A stretch of 32,121 nucleotides of DNA from Acidobacteriota bacterium (GTDB lineage: Bacteria > Acidobacteriota > JAAYUB01). The notes below the pieces were generated by a model. It made no database searches. It worked only from the letters and a program-made list of their open reading frames with translations, and was not told where the DNA came from. Below are positions 20,957 through 28,341 of the stretch, piece by piece. The position numbers and the translations under genes were made by a program. Where the stretch lies: the NCBI GenBank assembly GCA_012517875.1, contig JAAYUB010000102.1:1-32121 (forward strand), given 5' to 3'. The stretch's first letter is position 1, and each line of letters starts with the position of its first letter.

Positions 20957-21005
20957 GAAGCACATGATCCAGCGCGCACGATATTTTATATTCAAGGAGC
21001 TTAAG

Positions 21006-22379
21006 ATGGCGATGACACCCCGTATACTGGCGTCGTCCTGGGTGGCATGGGCGGCGCTTGGGGCCTGGCTGGCCGCCGCGGACGCGTCCGCACCCCGCCT
21101 GCTCACTCTACGCGAGGCCGCGGAACTGACTCTGGCCCACAATCCTTCGGTTCAGGCGGTCCGGGAACAGCAGGAGGCCGCGCGCCAGGTGAGCCGGCAG
21201 GCAAAATCGCAGCAGTTGCCGCGTCTCGACTTCAAGGAGAGCTTCACCAACGGCAACAACCCGATCTACGTCTTCGGAGCGAAGCTGACCCAGGAGAAGT
21301 TCTCCGCCTCCGATTTCGACATCGAGCTGCTGAACAATCCGGATCCCATCAACAACATCAAGACCGAGCTCACCCTGTACCAGTCGATCTGGCAGGGCGG
21401 CCAGACGCAGGCGCGGCGCGCAATGGCCCGGCTGGGCGAGGAAATCGCCGCTGAACGGCTGAACCAGACCCAGCAGCAACTCCTGCTGGAAGTGGTCACT
21501 CACTACTATGCCATTCAGCTCGCGCGGCAGAACCTGGAGACCGTCCAAGCCGCCCGCCGGTCCGCCGAAGCCAGCCTCACCCGCATCCAGAACATGTTCG
21601 ACTCGGGGCTCGTGGTGAAGTCGGACCTGCTCCGGATGCAGGTTCACATCGCCGAGGTGAGACGGCAACTGCTGGAGGCGGAGAACAACCTCAGGCTGAG
21701 CGTCTCCGCGCTGGACATCGACACCGGCCGGCAGCTCGGCGAAGGCTTTGAACCGGCCACACCGCTGGCGATGCGCGGCGACGCGCTGCCCGACGAGGCG
21801 TCGCTGCTGGCCGCCGCACTGGCTAACCGACCGGAGATAGCGGAAATGGAGCGCGCCATTGCCGTCGGCCGTGAGCAGGTTAACGAGGCCCGCGGCTACA
21901 ACCGGCCCCAGGTCGGCGCCTTCGCCACGTTCGAATACGACCAGGGCACGCGGTCCGGTTCCTCCGGCGCCAACTACCTGCTCGGTGTGCAGCTGTCATA
22001 TAACATCTTCGACGGTATGTACAAGGGAGCCAAAGTGGCCGAAGCCGAGGCCAACACCCGCGCCCGCGAGTCGCAGCTCCGTCGCCTGACCCAACTCATC
22101 AGCCTGCAGGTCAAGGATGCCTATCTCCGCAGGAGCACCGCCCGCCAGCAGCACCAGGTTGCCGCGGAGGCGGTGGCCCAGGCGGACGAAAGCCTGCGGA
22201 TCATGAAGGACCGCTACGAGGCGGGCATGGCCCCCCTCACCGACCTGCTGAACGCCGAGACGGCGCTGACGGCCGCCCGCACCAGCCTGAGCCAGGCAAT
22301 CTACCAGTACCACCTGGCGCACGCCAACCTCGAGCTGGCGGCCGGTCGGCTGAATCTGGACAGCCCCCTCTTCCAATGA
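21006..22379 (+). CDS. TolC-family outer-membrane efflux channel protein
   Basis: This is the outer-membrane exit duct of a tripartite RND pump, 457 residues. A signal peptide (about 5-25) is followed by the OEP hallmark LTLREAAELTLAHNPSVQAVREQQEAARQ. There are two homologous long coiled-coil halves (YYAIQLARQNLETVQAARRSAEASL; DAYLRRSTARQQHQVAAEAVAQADESL) with RYEAGMAPLTDLLNAETALTAAR in the second. The ATG at 21006 has AAGGAG six bases upstream, so the in-frame ATG at 20964 is rejected. The stop overlaps a possible upstream ATG of the adaptor frame, showing tight operon packing. The substrate is unknown. Confidence 0.92.
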   Translation: MAMTPRILASSWVAWAALGAWLAAADASAPRLLTLREAAELTLAHNPSVQAVREQQEAARQVSRQAKSQQLPRLDFKESFTNGNNPIYVFGAKLTQEKFSASDFDIELLNNPDPINNIKTELTLYQSIWQGGQTQARRAMARLGEEIAAERLNQTQQQLLLEVVTHYYAIQLARQNLETVQAARRSAEASLTRIQNMFDSGLVVKSDLLRMQVHIAEVRRQLLEAENNLRLSVSALDIDTGRQLGEGFEPATPLAMRGDALPDEASLLAAALANRPEIAEMERAIAVGREQVNEARGYNRPQVGAFATFEYDQGTRSGSSGANYLLGVQLSYNIFDGMYKGAKVAEAEANTRARESQLRRLTQLISLQVKDAYLRRSTARQQHQVAAEAVAQADESLRIMKDRYEAGMAPLTDLLNAETALTAARTSLSQAIYQYHLAHANLELAAGRLNLDSPLFQ

Positions 22380-22474
22380 TCGCCGAGAGGAACAGCGCCA
22401 TGATGCAGCAACTGAACAACACCGGAGTCCGTCGGTTCCATTCCGCCGCATTCAATTCAGGGAGGTTCAATCCT

Positions 22475-23623
22475 ATGTTCCGCAATATTCTGCCTGTCGC
22501 CCTTCTGGTCGTCCTGCTGGCGGGTTGCGGCGGTGCACCCGAGAAGGCCGCAGCCCCGACCCCGGGAACGCCCGTCGCCGTCGGGGCTCTGGTCGTCCAG
22601 CCGACCGAATGGCCGGCGACCCTGGAGGCTGTGGGCACCGTGCGCGCCCGAACCAGCGCCCTGATTGCGAGCAAGGTGATGGGGTACGTGCGGGAGGTGC
22701 GCGTCCAGGCCGGCGATGCCGTGGGCGCGGGCGATCTGCTCGTGTTGCTCGACGCCCGGGACCAGGAAACGGCCCTGCGGACCGCCCAGGCCGGCCTGGC
22801 CGAAGCGCGGGACGCCACGACCGAGGTTGAGAACGCCATCCGCGCCGCCGAGGCCAATCTCGAGCTGGCTCGGGCCACCCATCGGCGGATGAGCAACCTG
22901 TTCGACAAGAGCTCCATTTCCCGTCAGGAATTCGACGAGGTCGTCACCCGCCTCAAGATGGCCGAGGCCAACCACGAGATGGCCCTGTCGAAGCAGAATC
23001 AGCTTCAGGCCAGGATCCGGCAGGCGGAAGAGGGGGTCCGATCAGCCGAGATCATGACCGGATACGCCGAGATCCGCGCGCCTTTCGCCGGCGTGGTCAT
23101 CGACAAAACCGCGCAGCCGGGCAATCTGGCCGCGCCGGGAGTGCCGCTGTTGACCCTGGAGCGGCGCGGCGACTACCGCCTGGAAGCGTCGGTGGACGAA
23201 TCCCAGTTGGCTTCGATTCGGCCAGGCGCGCCGGTCACGGTCACGCTGGACGCCTTGAACCGCCGGATCGACGCCCGGGTGTCCGACGTTGTTCCGGCCG
23301 TGGATCCCGCGGCCCGCGCCTTCCTGGTCAAAATCGACCTGCCGGCTGCGCCGGACCTGCGCTCCGGACTGTTCGGCCGGGCCACCTTCGCCGTGGGCAG
23401 TCGCCGCGTGCTGACGGTGCCCGCCGACGCTATCCGCACCCGCGGCCAGCTGCAGTGGGTGTTTGTGACCGACCAGGGCACGGCCCGTCTGCGCATGGTC
23501 ACCACCGGCACCGAGCGCGACGGCCGCCGCGAGGTTCTCTCCGGTCTCGCCGCCGGTGAGTCGATCATCTATCCCGTCACCGCTGACCTGTCCGACGGGG
23601 CCAAGGTGGAGGTCCGGTCGTGA
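22475..23623 (+). CDS. RND efflux periplasmic adaptor (membrane fusion lipoprotein)
   Basis: This is a 382-residue membrane fusion protein linking the RND permease to the TolC channel. The N-terminus [18 protein letters not shown] ends in a lipobox (LAGC, Cys18), so it is a lipoprotein of the periplasmic face. Next come the lipoyl-like half-motif ([40 protein letters not shown]), a coiled-coil hairpin (about 85-185), the second lipoyl half ([32 protein letters not shown]) and the beta-barrel domain ([14 protein letters not shown]...). The frame is open to an ATG at 22376, but only the start at 22475, with GGGAGG nine bases upstream, puts the lipoprotein signal at the N-terminus. The stop overlaps the GTG start of the permease. 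Confidence 0.92.
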
Positions 23624-26600
23624 AAGAGCTGCAACCGCTCGGCATCGCGGGCCGCTTCGCCCGCTCGTGGATCAACTCGAAGCTGACGCCGCTGTTCATC
23701 GCCGCCTCGCTGGCGCTCGGCGCGTTCGCCGTGTGGCGCCTCCCCCGCGAGGAGGAGCCGCAGATCAAGGTGCCCATGCTCGACGTCTTCGTCGCCATGC
23801 CCGGCGCCAGTGCCAAGGAAGTCGAAGAGCGGGTCACCAAGCCCATGGAAAAGCTCATCTGGGAGATCCCGGGTGTCGAGTACATCTATTCCACCTCCAG
23901 CCCGGGGATGGCCATGGCCATCGTTCGCTTTTACGTCGGCGAGGACGAGGAAGACAGCATCGTCAAGCTGAACCAGAAGATGTTCGCCAATTTCGACCTC
24001 ATCCCGCCGGGCGCCTCTCAGCCGCTGATCAAGCCGCGCTCCATCGACGACGTGCCCATCCTGGCGCTGACGCTTTGGAGCGAACGGTACGGCGACTTCG
24101 ACCTGCGTCGCATCGCCGCCCAGGTGCATGACACCGTGAAACAGGCGCCCGACGTCTCGGCGGCCACCATCATCGGCGGCCAGCGTCGCGAGGTCCGGGT
24201 GGTGCTCGACGAGAAACGACTCGCCGCCTACAGCCTGTCGCCCATGCAGGTGTACGGCGCGCTCGGTGCGTTCAACCGGCGCCTCTCCGGCGGCCGGTTC
24301 GCCGCCGACAACCGTGAGTTCACCCTGGAGGTGGGCCAATTCCTGGCCAGCGCCGCCGACGTCGGGAACGTGGTCGTCGGCATCGCCCAGGGCAAGCCGA
24401 TCTACGTCCGCGACGTCGCCGAGGTGGCCGACGGCGGCGAGGAGCCGGTCCAGTACGTCATGCACGCCCACGACGGCACGTTCCGCCCGGCGGTGACGCT
24501 GTCCATCTCGAAACGCAAGGGGACCAACGCCATCACCGTGGCCGAGGAGGTCCTGCAACGTGTCGAGAGCCTCAAGGGCCGAGTCATCCCGGCCGACGTG
24601 AATGTGACCATCAGCCGCCACTACGGCGAGACGGCCTCGGAGAAATCGAACGAGCTGCTCTTCCACATGGCCATCGCTGTGGTTTCGGTGAGCATCCTGG
24701 TCGGCATCACCTTGGGCATCCGGGAGCTCTGGATCGTCTTCATCGCCATCCCGGTGACCCTGGCCCTCACCCTGACGGTGTTCTACCTGTACGGGTACAC
24801 CCTCAACCGGATCACCCTATTTGCGCTCATCTTCTCCATCGGCATCCTGGTGGACGATGCCATCGTGGTGGTGGAAAACATCGTGCGCCATGCCCGCATG
24901 GCCGCCAACAAGGGGCGCCCCCTCGTCGATATCGCCATCGAGGCGGTGGACGAGGTGGGCAACCCCACCATCCTGGCCACCATGACCGTTATTGCCGCCA
25001 TCCTGCCCATGGCCTTCGTGGGCGGGCTCATGGGCCCCTACATGCGGCCCATCCCGGTGGGCGCCTCGGCGGCCATGATCTTCTCGCTCATCGTCGCCTT
25101 CCTGGTCACCCCGTGGGCCGCGGTCCGGCTCCTCAAACTGCGCGGAAGCCACGGGCACGACGAGCAGGAGGATCTGCTCACCCGGTTCTACCGGCGGGTG
25201 ATGGACTACCTGCTCCACCGTCCGGCGTACCGGTACGGCTTCCTGCTGATGGTGATCGTGCTCCTTCTCGGCTCGGTGGGACTGATCTTCATCGAGTTCG
25301 TCGAAGTCAAGATGCTCCCATTCGATAACAAGAGCGAATTCCAGGTCATCGTGGACATGCCCGAGGGGACCACCCTGGAGACCACCGCGATGGTCACCCG
25401 CCGCCTGGCCGAGAAGGTGCTGGAACACCCCGAGGTGGTGGACCTGCAGACGTACGCCGGCACGGCGTCGCCGTTCAACTTCAACGGCTTGGTGCGGCAC
25501 TACTTTTTGCGCCAGGGCGCCAACGTGGCCGACATTCAGGTCAACCTTTTGCCCAAGGGCGACCGTGATCTCCAAAGCCATGACATCGCCAAGAAGGTCC
25601 GCGCCGACCTCGTGCCCGTTGCCCAGGCGTTCGGCGCACGGATCAAGGTGGCTGAGGTGCCGCCGGGCCCGCCGGTGCTTCAGACGCTGGTCGCCGAGAT
25701 CTACGGCCCCGACCAGGCCGGCCAGCACCGGCTGGCCCGCCAGGTGCGGGACATCTTCGAAAGCGTCGAGGGTGTGGTGGATGTGGACATGTACCTCGAG
25801 GACGACCAGCCGAAGACCAACCTGCTGGTCGACAAAGAAAAGGCCGCGCTGCACGGAATCTCCGAGGATGACATCGCCCGGACGCTGCGGATCGCCACCG
25901 CCGGCGAGTCGGCCGGTCTGCTCCACAGCGAACTGGAGAAAGAGGATGTGCACATCCGGATGCGCCTGGACCGCGCGGCGCGCTCCGACCTGAACCGCCT
26001 CCTGAGCCTTAAACTCCCCTCGCCCGACGGCCGGCTCGTGCCCCTGTCGGAACTTGTCCGGGCAGAGCGGACCATTGATGACAAGAGCATCTACCACAAG
26101 AATCTGATGCCCGTGACCTACGTGACCGCCGACGTGGCCGGGGCCCACGAGAGCCCGGTCTACGCGATCCTCGCCCTCGGGCCCAAGATCGACGGAATCC
26201 GACTGCCCGAGAGGTACCGGATCGAACAGCTCACTGCGCGGTTGCCCGAAAGCGACGATCGGTATGTCCTCAAGTGGGACGGTGAGTGGCACATCACGTA
26301 TGAGGTGTTCCGCGACCTGGGCATCGCCTTCGCCGCGGTGCTCCTGCTCATCTACATCCTGGTGGTGGGCTGGTTCCAGTCGTTCGACACGCCGCTCATC
26401 ATCATGGCGGCGATCCCCTTCTCGCTGGTGGGTATCCTGCCGGCCCACGGCCTCATGGGCGCCTTTTTCACCGCCACGTCCATGATCGGCTTCATCGCCG
26501 GCGCGGGGATCGTCGTCCGCAACTCCATCATCCTCGTCGATTTCGTCGAGCTGCGTTTGCGCGAGGGGATGCCCCTGGACCAGGCCGTGATCGACGCTGG

Positions 26601-26811
26601 CGCCGTCCGATTCCGCCCCATGATGCTCACGGCGGCGGCGGTGATCGTCGGCTCGGCGGTGATCCTGTTCGATCCGATCTTCCAGGGGCTGGCCATCGCT
26701 CTGATGGCCGGCGAGGTGGCCTCGCTGGCCCTGTCGCGCATGACCGTCCCCATCGTCTATTTCGTGGTGCACCGCCGGTGGCACAAACACCCGGCTGCAC
26801 CACCAGCCTGA
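23620..26811 (+). CDS. RND efflux permease (HAE/AcrB superfamily)
   Basis: This is the proton-driven inner-membrane pump, 1063 residues, the full usual length. The first helix ([34 protein letters not shown]) is followed by a large periplasmic loop beginning [46 protein letters not shown]. The second helix bundle carries [17 protein letters not shown] with the paired aspartates D412/D413 of the proton relay. The second half repeats the pattern ([29 protein letters not shown]). The Asp pair argues against a CusA-type metal exporter and for the multidrug-like or uncharacterised branch. It starts at GTG, which overlaps the adaptor stop (GTGA), with GGAGG seven bases upstream. Confidence 0.93.
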
Positions 26812-26824
26812 TCAGGAGGAGACC

Positions 26825-27691
26825 ATGAGCGCCGATTCCGCCCGACCGATCCTGTGCCCCACGGACTTCAGCGCCGAAGCCGGCCACGCCCTCCGCTGGG
26901 GCGGTGAGCTGGCACTCCGGCTGTCCCGTCCGCTGGTCGCCCTATATGCCGACCGGTTCCTGCCGCCGCCGCACTTCACGGCGCGACAGATCGACATCCT
27001 CGTCGAGGAACTCGACCAGTCCCGCACCGTCGCCCGGCAGGCGCTGGTCGACCAGGCGGGCCGGATGATCGCCCCGGCCGTCGCCACCGAGCCGGTGGTG
27101 GTCCAGGATCTGGCGGTTCCAGCGATCATCCGGCTGGCCGCCGAACGGAACGCCGAGATGATCGTGATGGGCTCACACGGTCACAGCGCCCTCGACCGGA
27201 TCATGCTGGGTTCGGTGACCGAACGGGTTCTGCGATTGGCGGACCGGCCGGTACTCGCGGTCAAGCTATCCGCAGAAAAGGACCCCGCCGCCTTCCCGGA
27301 GATTCGCACCATCCTCTGCCCCGTGGACCTCGGCGAGGACGCCCGGCCGGCGCTGCTGCTGGCTGCCCGGCTGGCCACGGCCTTTGCGGCCGAGCTCCAG
27401 GTGCTCCACGTGGCGGAAGCGGCGCCGGACCCGGACGTGGAACGCGCCGCGCGGGAGGCCCTGTGCGCCTGGGTGCCGGACACCGCCCGCACCAGCTGCC
27501 GTCTCCACGAGGTGGTTCGGCCTGGCAAACCGGCCGAAGAGATCCTCCTGGCGGCGCAGGAGTCGCACGCGGAGCTCATCGTGTTGCCGACCCGCCACAA
27601 GCTGTTTCAGGACGTCACCGTGCTCGGGGCCACCGTCGCCCGGATCACCCGGCACGCGTCGTGCGCCGTGCTGGCCGTTCCAGTCGTCTGA
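26825..27691 (+). CDS. Tandem-domain universal stress protein (UspA family)
   Basis: This is a 288-residue cytosolic protein made of two Usp domains (about 6-145 and 155-288). The first begins RPILCPTDFSAEAGHALRWG and keeps the nucleotide-binding motif GSHGHSALDRIMLGSVTERVL (GxxGx9GS), so it probably binds ATP. The second begins TILCPVDLGEDARPALLLAARLA, but its equivalent loop reads PTRHKLFQDVTVLGATVARI, in which the first two glycines are lost, so it probably does not bind ATP in the usual way. The ATG follows AGGAGG by five bases and lies 13 bases after the RND permease stop, which puts it in the efflux operon. Confidence 0.92.
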   Translation: MSADSARPILCPTDFSAEAGHALRWGGELALRLSRPLVALYADRFLPPPHFTARQIDILVEELDQSRTVARQALVDQAGRMIAPAVATEPVVVQDLAVPAIIRLAAERNAEMIVMGSHGHSALDRIMLGSVTERVLRLADRPVLAVKLSAEKDPAAFPEIRTILCPVDLGEDARPALLLAARLATAFAAELQVLHVAEAAPDPDVERAAREALCAWVPDTARTSCRLHEVVRPGKPAEEILLAAQESHAELIVLPTRHKLFQDVTVLGATVARITRHASCAVLAVPVV

Positions 27692-27763: not shown

Positions 27764-27970
27764 ATGACCGTTGATCGCCTGCTTCGACTGATCGCCGGAT
27801 TCTTCATTCTGCTCACCGTGGCCCTGGGCGTCTGGGTCCATTCGAACTGGTTCTACTTCACCGCGTTCGTCGGGCTGAACCTCTTCCAGTCAGCCTTCAC
27901 GAACTGGTGCCCCATGATGACCATCCTGCGCAAGCTGGGCGTGCCTGATACCACCCCATGCAGACAGTGA
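27764..27970 (+). CDS. DUF2892 (YgaP-like) inner-membrane protein
   Basis: This is a 68-residue membrane protein with two hydrophobic helices (LIAGFFILLTVALGVWVH; WFYFTAFVGLNLFQSAF) and the terminal NWCPMMTILRKLGV, a typical DUF2892/YgaP transmembrane-domain ending with a Cys-Pro. In other bacteria the domain is often fused or adjacent to rhodanese domains and linked with sulfur handling. No rhodanese is present here. AAGGAG lies seven bases before the ATG. It is followed after 19 bases by the tiny membrane ORF with the in-frame TGA. Confidence 0.85.
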   Translation: MTVDRLLRLIAGFFILLTVALGVWVHSNWFYFTAFVGLNLFQSAFTNWCPMMTILRKLGVPDTTPCRQ

Positions 27971-27989: not shown

Positions 27990-28145
27990 ATGTCCGAGAT
28001 GTTGACGATTTTAATGTTCGTCGGGATCTGGATCCTGCTCCAGGCGGTCATCCTACCCCGCCTGGGCGTCAAGACCTGAATGTCCGACGCCTGCGATCTC
28101 GGGTCCCGGGATCGGAAACAGCCGCCGCCATCGGATGCGGAGTGA
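27990..28145 (+). CDS. Tiny membrane protein, candidate selenoprotein (in-frame TGA at 28077-28079)
   Basis: An ATG at 27990 opens a 29-codon frame made of one membrane helix (LTILMFVGIWILLQAVIL) ending in PRLGVKT and then TGA. If the TGA is read as selenocysteine, the frame continues U-M-S-D-A-C-D-L-G and ends at 28143-28145 after 51 codons, just 7 bases before the fmdB-like ATG. From memory, and unverified, short membrane proteins beside DUF2892 genes in other bacteria end in a GVPT-C-M-(S/T)-G-x-C motif, so the TGA sits where a Cys would be. A SECIS-like hairpin (28094-28114) follows. GAGG/GGGG stand upstream of the ATG. The conservative alternative is an ordinary 29-residue protein ending at 28079. 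No selenocysteine machinery is visible in this window. Confidence 0.55.
28094..28114 (+). promoter_or_regulatory. SECIS-like hairpin after the in-frame TGA
   Basis: CGATCTCGG (28094-28102) pairs with CCGGGATCG (28106-28114), nine pairs with one G-U wobble, closing on GTC. If the top pair opens, the loop is GGUCC, close to the AGGUCU loop of the E. coli fdhF SECIS. The stem starts 14 bases after the TGA, and the apical G's lie 22-24 bases after it. This falls in the range known for bacterial SECIS elements. The stem could also be a chance GC-rich palindrome or a weak terminator, although no U-tract follows. Confidence 0.5.
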
Positions 28146-28152
28146 GGTGACC

Positions 28153-28341
28153 ATGCCGCTGTACGAATACTTCTGCCGGGAGTGCCGAAAAACGTTTGAA
28201 GCGTTGCGGCGCCTGTCCGACGACGACGCCGACGTGCGCTGCCCCCATTGCGGCTCGGAGAAGGTGGATCGTGAGTTCTCGACCTTCGCCAGCGCCGGGT
28301 CACCGGGTCACGCCGGATGCGCATCCGGTCCCATCGGCTGA
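28153..28341 (+). CDS. FmdB-family zinc ribbon protein
   Basis: This is a 62-residue protein that opens with the family signature MPLYEYFCRECRKTFEALRRLSDDD and carries two CxxC knuckles (FCREC and RCPHCGS) that should hold one zinc. The short C-terminal tail contains another Cys (HAGCASG). FmdB proteins are putative regulatory or zinc-handling proteins; the exact role is unknown. The ATG at 28153 has GAGG five bases upstream. The in-frame ATG at 28135 falls within the selenoprotein-candidate reading frame and is not used. It is probably the last gene of the efflux operon. Confidence 0.88.
   Translation: MPLYEYFCRECRKTFEALRRLSDDDADVRCPHCGSEKVDREFSTFASAGSPGHAGCASGPIG

Follow-up and report, generated by a model that had tools for sequence, protein, structure and literature searches.

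A widespread family of one-helix bacterial membrane proteins that apparently contain selenocysteine

The prokaryotic selenoproteins are listed in a 2026 review (PMC13188914), Table 1 of which contains 119 families and subfamilies. In the accessible text of this review, the families cited from Haft and Tolstoy mostly bear NCBIfam numbers, the groundwater candidates of Deng et al. 2026 are also cited, and rules are given for the bacterial SECIS element, including loop size, an early G and a spacing of 16-37 nt. In the available part of the deep-Sep paper (PMC12013277), GrdA (glycine reductase selenoprotein A) is given as the one earlier case of a selenoprotein without Cys homologs, and the authors indicate that families without such homologs may be filtered out. 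Genes in which UGA stands for selenocysteine (Sec) are easily mis-annotated, and both the gene callers that stop at TGA and the methods that demand Cys homologs would be likely to miss a family such as the one described here.

This family, represented here by a small gene from an Acidobacteriota contig, looks widespread across several bacterial phyla and apparently contains selenium. Nothing like it is present in Table 1 of the review as accessible, and no literature naming this one-helix family was found, the available portions of PMC13188914, PMC12013277, PMC5029168 and PMC2398784 included. As a whole, the observations are probably best explained by a new bacterial selenoprotein family, for which a sulfane-sulfur role is tentatively proposed.

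The small gene with an in-frame TGA

The window (the whole stretch of DNA that was analysed, 32,121 nucleotides) contains an operon with the order OMF-MFP-RND-USP-DUF2892-Sec gene-FmdB. The genes of this operon and the elements of the small gene are as follows.

20964..22379, + strand: outer-membrane efflux protein (PF02321, E 4e-60)
22376..23623, + strand: membrane-fusion protein of the HlyD type (PF16576, PF13437)
23620..26811, + strand: RND efflux permease (PF00873, E 3.7e-159)
26825..27691, + strand: tandem universal stress protein (PF00582, two stretches)
27764..27970, + strand: YgaP-like_TM (DUF2892) small membrane protein, upstream operon mate (PF11127, E 2.5e-15)
27990..28145, + strand: gene of the putative one-helix selenoprotein (51 residues, Sec as residue 30, then stop)
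27993..28061, + strand: predicted membrane helix, residues 2-24 (AlphaFold2, mean pLDDT 94 for residues 1-10 and 90 for residues 11-20)
28077..28079, + strand: in-frame TGA, probably read as selenocysteine (codon 30; TGA in 89 of 92 distinct main-set loci, Cys in 5 genomes)
28092..28094, + strand: Cys codon at +5, possible resolving partner (UxxxxC; present in 67 of 72 type I members)
28094..28114, + strand: SECIS-like hairpin (9 bp including one G-U pair, GUC loop with GGUC apex, -12.2 kcal/mol)
28153..28341, + strand: FmdB-family zinc-ribbon protein, downstream operon mate (TIGR02605, 66.1 bits, cut-off 31.3)

The translation of 27990-28145 is MSEMLTILMFVGIWILLQAVILPRLGVKT-U-MSDACDLGSRDRKQPPPSDAE, that is 29 residues, a TGA and 21 residues ending at a second TGA. 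The final stop is separated by 7 bases from the ATG (28153) of the FmdB-type gene, a distance that becomes a 73-base gap if the first TGA is taken as the true stop. This read-through frame with its TGA at codon 30 and both spacings had been claimed in an earlier note on this DNA and is confirmed in the window, as is the partner gene announced there, which matches PF11127 (YgaP-like_TM, which we take to be the present name of DUF2892).

The TGA could also be an ordinary stop. The product would then be a one-helix peptide of 29 residues, and what is conserved downstream would be a regulatory RNA hairpin or chance. A membrane peptide of 29 residues is possible, and since 73% of the 262 natural TGA stops in the loci collected here are followed by at least 15 open codons, the length of the open frame was dropped as evidence.

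AlphaFold2 models only the helix 2-24 of the window protein and gives low confidence beyond it; the best match of the family profile among solved structures has an E-value of 0.43. The positively charged flank of a membrane helix faces the cytoplasm (positive-inside rule). In the family, Lys and Arg number 0.11 on average in the short stretch before the helix versus 3.47 in the 23 residues after it, and are more numerous after the helix in 89/89 members, counts that are overstated because related loci are treated as independent, that compare stretches of unequal length and that include one locus (L034) lacking a called start. As the positive charges follow the helix, the selenol would probably be placed at the cytoplasmic surface of the membrane.

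Relatives, hairpin and selenocysteine machinery

The read-through peptide, with Cys replacing the residue at UGA, was searched against 149 related genomes (E 0.1 or better). Relatives were detected in 35 of them, with one in-frame TGA at 36 of the 38 matched places, the two others being weak. All 30 loci taken from this search display LPxxGxxT-U plus a Cys five residues on. A profile of 28 of these 30 loci matches 97 of the 396 genomes of the own phylum (Acidobacteriota) at E 0.01, including five genomes that are based on weak rows only and may not be members (G293, G093, G162, G337 and G050). The weak matches G093:C1:4159369-4159455 and G162:C1:1822992-1823078 hold two in-frame TGA codons each.

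A scan of species genomes recovered 42 loci, of which 40 have TGA, one has Cys (L146, on the same contig as the Cys genome G186) and one is a broken relative with TAG (L156). The titles of these loci comprise Acidobacteria, Deltaproteobacteria, Rokuibacteriota, Planctomycetota, Armatimonadetes, Verrucomicrobia, Chloroflexi and others. In the planctomycete phylum the family is present in 30 of 343 genomes (26 TGA and 4 Cys), and in the deltaproteobacterial phylum in 141 of 345; for these counts the codon itself was read in the collected loci, and elsewhere TGA is the stop reported by the search. The matches that stop short of the codon in 12 deltaproteobacterial-phylum genomes have TGA there in 12/12. 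The 68 loci read at the codon, which overlap earlier ones, are divided into 64 TGA and 4 Cys. Searches of plasmids with the window peptide and with its Cys form gave no match.

The main set was obtained by pooling 112 loci into 92 distinct ones, with 89 TGA, one TGT, one TGG and one GAG. The GAG (L092, copy L033) results from mis-indexing by the pattern; its codon is actually TGA, and the gene is absent from the later counts of 89. The TGG locus (L087) is a weak profile match judged unrelated. Four further Cys loci are known besides the TGT locus, and the Cys forms TC[ML]SGxC of five genomes read GIGTCMSGAC, GMKTCLSGFC, GMQTCLSGMC, GMQTCLSGLC and GIPTCMSGGC. The motif GVPT-C-M-x-G-x-C given in the earlier note has its real counterparts in these. 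TGA or Cys aligns at codon 30 and MSxxC continues after it, as that note had proposed to check among homologs.

The alignment A1 contains 28 sequences whose members were chosen without the motif (the near-copies L035 and L041 were left out). P23, G26, T29, residue 30 (U) and C35 (the +5 Cys) are invariant in 28/28. The main set (TGA in 89 of its 92 loci) has the motif LP[RK]xGVxT-U around the codon; the pattern used for this larger set required P, G and T or R ahead of the codon, so that invariance there is partly by construction and A1 is the test free of it. Two types can be distinguished. In type I (n=72), the Sec codon is followed by M-S-x-x-C, with M at +1 in 55/72 and C at +5 in 67/72. 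In type II (n=16), it is followed in most by [AG]-V-P-x-P, and the +5 Cys is found in 0/16. Two corrections apply to the earlier note: the usual residue found at the codon is Sec and not Cys, and the second Cys of the proposed pair does not occur throughout the family, being missing from all of type II. The putative Sec is more constant in the family than its possible Cys partner.

The type II loci, in which Sec has no near partner, include L076-L091 (minus L084, L086 and L087) plus L093. L127, L134 and L148 are type I loci that keep TGA and lack the +5 Cys. In the deltaproteobacterial phylum (that of G396), the variant forms LPS-U-GAP, IPV-U-GMP and IRG-U-GVG were seen, so that the Thr before Sec is not universal. 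Sec forms without the +5 Cys also occur in L201-L212, including LPS-U-GAP, IPV-U-GMP and FKT-U-LIPQNRQ.

These data bear on the reading of TGA as an ordinary stop. The Cys members read straight on with the same CxSGxC, and the +5 codon of type I encodes Cys in most members with its third base free, which both argue against a stop. No TAA or TAG occurs at the aligned codon among the members read apart from L156, whose TAG could speak for a stop; this locus comes from a short contig, its genome bearing the title Bacteroidetes, and its frame is shifted within the helix (near 2168-2221). After the UGA, codons 1-5 display a modest periodicity (p about 0.01); codons 6-12 display none (p 0.3-0.55), which would suit a stop. 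This absence is expected if the hairpin constrains these codons; the signal is still weaker than one would wish.

The hairpin is present as the earlier note had described it, with 9 bp and a GGUC apex, beginning 14 bases downstream of the TGA. The 51 bases after the window TGA fold with -17.3 kcal/mol (z = 0.10), and 106 of 200 shuffles are as good. Taken alone, the window hairpin is thus no better than chance, a point in favour of the stop, and the case therefore rests on the comparison of the family. The bSECIS rules (loop of 3-9 with a G at its first or second place, spacing of 16-37 and -7.5 kcal/mol) were taken from the accessible text of PMC13188914. Hairpins that fit them occur in 80/89 members versus 171/267 shuffles with synonymous codons, 150/267 dinucleotide shuffles and 86/180 natural TGA stops (a fraction of 0.48-0.64 in the controls); 9/89 members have none. 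A GUC/GGUC loop is found in 47/89 members versus 13/267 synonymous shuffles, 12/267 dinucleotide shuffles and 4/180 natural TGA stops. The spacing peaks at 22-23 (54/80). Among the nine stem pairs of the 48 members with a GUC/GGUC loop, pairs 1, 2, 5 and 6 exceed all 500 shuffles in how often they form, a covariation overstated by treating related loci as independent; for pairs 3, 4, 7, 8 and 9 no such excess is seen.

Of the selenocysteine genes that the earlier note had proposed to look for, the own genome contains selA (474.5 bits), selB (320 bits, above cut-off, with 302 of 581 positions covered at the edge of a contig) and tRNA-Sec (selC; 79.3 bits, anticodon TCA). Together with the alignment at the codon and the continuation after it, the refuting conditions named in that note thus turned out in favour of its interpretation. 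In the set of 149 genomes, selA is above cut-off in 30/35 family genomes versus 72/114 others (p 0.008). Of the five exceptions, one is 1.8 bits under cut-off, three have selB above cut-off and one is 64% complete; in the last of these (G126, TGA form) neither selA nor selB is above cut-off. In the Cys genome G186, which is 99% complete, no selB exceeds the cut-off. In the planctomycete phylum, selA is found in 23/26 TGA genomes, 0/4 Cys genomes and 194/313 others (p 0.004 for TGA versus others), and selB is above cut-off in all three TGA genomes without selA and in none of the four Cys genomes. In 14 genomes of the species-scan loci, selA is present in 11/13 TGA and 0/1 Cys genomes, and in 21 chosen genomes it is above cut-off in 16/16 TGA and 0/5 Cys. 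Two TGA genomes, G398 and G400, have neither selA nor selB above cut-off; the selB-like hit of G398 is partial (192 bits, with an internal stop), and G400 gives no hit at E 1e-30. G398 is the genome of L127, a type I member without the +5 Cys.

That the TGA form tracks selA/selB is the last of the points against an ordinary stop, which we regard as very improbable. Decoding of the UGA as another residue such as Trp, through a changed genetic code or natural suppression, is more improbable still, with nothing detected in its favour: Cys takes the place of this codon in the read-through homologs, the tRNA-Sec of the own genome has the anticodon TCA, and TGA acts as a stop for other genes of the window, e.g. 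the universal stress gene at 27691. Judged from sequence comparison, UGA codon 30 is almost certainly decoded as selenocysteine by SelB and tRNA-Sec, aided by the hairpin directly downstream.

Gene neighbourhood and possible function

Near the Sec gene in the 89 loci we detected RND permeases (21 loci), DUF302 (19), membrane-fusion proteins (18), DUF2892 (17) and ArsR-type regulators (12, or 14 after pooling), and a rhodanese/MBL/ferritin-like cluster lies beside it in 9/89. TauE, DUF302 and other labels outside the scanned representatives correspond to BLAST clusters, and the labels thioredoxin-like, cysteine-desulfurase-like, FmdB-like and persulfide dioxygenase-like were assigned by eye. 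FmdB-like genes, so labelled, are near the Sec gene in 8 other loci. L082 and L083 have the order RND, DUF2892, P-II-like, ArsR, Sec gene, FmdB-like, DUF302. A short P-II-like gene lies just upstream in L078, L079, L082, L083, L090, L095, L102 and L107, often beside RND/DUF2892; that of L083 matches PF00543 with 26.5 bits (cut-off 25).

From the RND and ArsR neighbours, and from the order of the window operon, it could be proposed that the protein is an accessory or capture protein for the efflux of metal(loids) or toxic compounds, whose U and C would bind soft metals (Hg, As, Te) at the membrane and pass them on to the RND pump, under ArsR control. On the metalloregulator ArsR/SmtB model (cut-off 55), the regulator of L080 scores 102 bits, which is in agreement with such a role. 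We consider it unlikely, because most loci have no RND neighbour, the second set of 40 loci adds none to the RND cluster, type II has no second ligand and the planctomycete Cys and Sec operons consist of sulfide genes.

The copies of several genes are close to the Sec gene. Within 1.5 kb are 18/18 copies of DUF2892, 19/20 of DUF302 and 15/17 of the rhodanese/MBL cluster. When the copies of DUF302, DUF2892, rhodanese/MBL, TauE, SQR-like and CoADR genes are added up over both sets, 65/71 fall within this distance versus 48% of all ORFs, a near-far contrast whose p values are overstated since related loci count as independent. DUF2892, rhodanese/MBL, TauE, SQR-like or CoADR genes are found within 1.5 kb in 28/89 loci of the first set (40 with DUF302) and in 5/40 of the second, all planctomycete; the counted clusters of these five kinds include none within 1.5 kb in the 34 deltaproteobacterial-phylum loci. 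In four planctomycete loci the small gene is accompanied by TauE, MBL-rhodanese and SQR-like genes: L197, L198 and L199 (Cys) and L214 (Sec), in the last of which two other ORFs separate the small Sec gene from the SQR-like gene. L197-L199 and L214 represent a natural Sec-Cys pair in like operons. In L152 (5236-5799, identified with Pfam; a like gene exists in L155), a rhodanese fused to a YgaP-like membrane domain is encoded downstream of the Sec gene.

The earlier note had guessed a redox function, possibly for sulfur or selenium species or linked with an RND pump. Its sulfur part agrees with the recurrence of sulfur genes and its pump part with the RND genes, but neither kind is present at most loci. 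A sulfane-sulfur role, which gene context suggests in part of the family, is the best-supported function, and we put it forward tentatively, at a little under an even chance; it is proposed because DUF2892, DUF302, rhodanese and SQR-like neighbours recur, although most loci lack them. In the corresponding scheme, SelB and tRNA-Sec would insert Sec at UGA codon 30 with the help of the downstream hairpin. The product would consist of one membrane helix and, after it, LP[RK]xGVxT-U, with the selenol on the cytoplasmic face. This membrane-tethered selenol would take up, carry or reduce sulfane sulfur (persulfide, polysulfide) that passes from one protein of sulfide handling to another, for example those of the SQR-like, MBL-rhodanese, DUF2892/YgaP and rhodanese kinds. 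Type I would use its +5 Cys to resolve the Se-S bond, and the Sec of type II, which has no such Cys, would serve as a carrier only. The more specific proposal of a membrane selenol serving as sulfane-sulfur acceptor or reductase in chains that oxidise sulfide and handle persulfide (SQR, MBL-rhodanese, DUF2892), with Sec near-obligatory and Cys a rare substitute in genomes without SelB, is plausible and slightly more tentative again.

A membrane peroxide or disulfide reductase or sensor without sulfur specificity, in which thioredoxin would feed a selenenylsulfide U-xxxx-C cycle, would suit the UxxxxC of most type I members, the thioredoxin-like genes (by eye) of 9 loci and the OsmC, cytochrome bd subunit I and universal stress genes near some loci. 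The +5 Cys is, however, absent from type II and from five type I members, and the rhodanese, MBL-rhodanese, TauE and SQR-like neighbours indicate sulfur; this reading appears rather doubtful. If the sulfane-sulfur role is true, selenium use would be linked to membrane sulfide and persulfide handling, and the Sec and Cys versions in like operons would offer a simple test of the advantage of Sec over Cys.

Comparison with described families

The 28 members of A1, all with the +5 Cys, were compared with the family libraries. In NCBIfam 20.0 they reach two families (best E 0.1), neither being a selenoprotein model, and in Pfam they have no plausible model, with nine families at E 1 and PF11127 not among them. 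The family thus looks unlisted in these libraries and in the 2026 catalogue as accessible, a view that does not extend to the sequences of GOS_A (PMC2398784) and of the candidates from groundwater in Deng et al. 2026. Found in 97/396 and 141/345 sampled genomes of two phyla, it is yet without a model in the tested libraries, and the Cys-homolog filter mentioned in the available deep-Sep text could explain why it is unlisted.

YgaP-like_TM/DUF2892 (PF11127), a neighbour in 18 loci, is like our family a small membrane protein, and visual inspection of DUF2892 proteins shows that a Cys-Pro close to a Leu-Gly turn is conserved. Our protein differs by its one helix and by Sec instead of Cys, and no A1 member matches PF11127. 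The type III sulfide quinone reductase selenoprotein subtype (NF049943) and the MBL-rhodanese correspond to the types of partner genes in the planctomycete operons and are unrelated in sequence to the small protein. The SQR-like neighbours score 241-262 bits on the NCBIfam type III SQR model (cut-off 525), a CoA-disulfide reductase 469 bits, also under cut-off, and the MBL-rhodanese neighbours 50-55 bits on the Blh model (cut-off 625).

In the accessible part of PMC13188914, the selenoprotein families share with ours the in-frame UGA, the SECIS-like hairpin downstream, the Cys homologs and the Sec machinery in the genome. Compared by description, no entry of its table, as available, is a one-helix membrane protein with UxxxxC; TsoB has UxxxxU, but in a rhodanese/DsbD fusion. 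GrdA resembles our family in being nearly always a Sec form; the protein is unrelated, and ours has rare Cys forms. In contrast to the families described in the available text of the review, the Sec forms here far outnumber the Cys forms.
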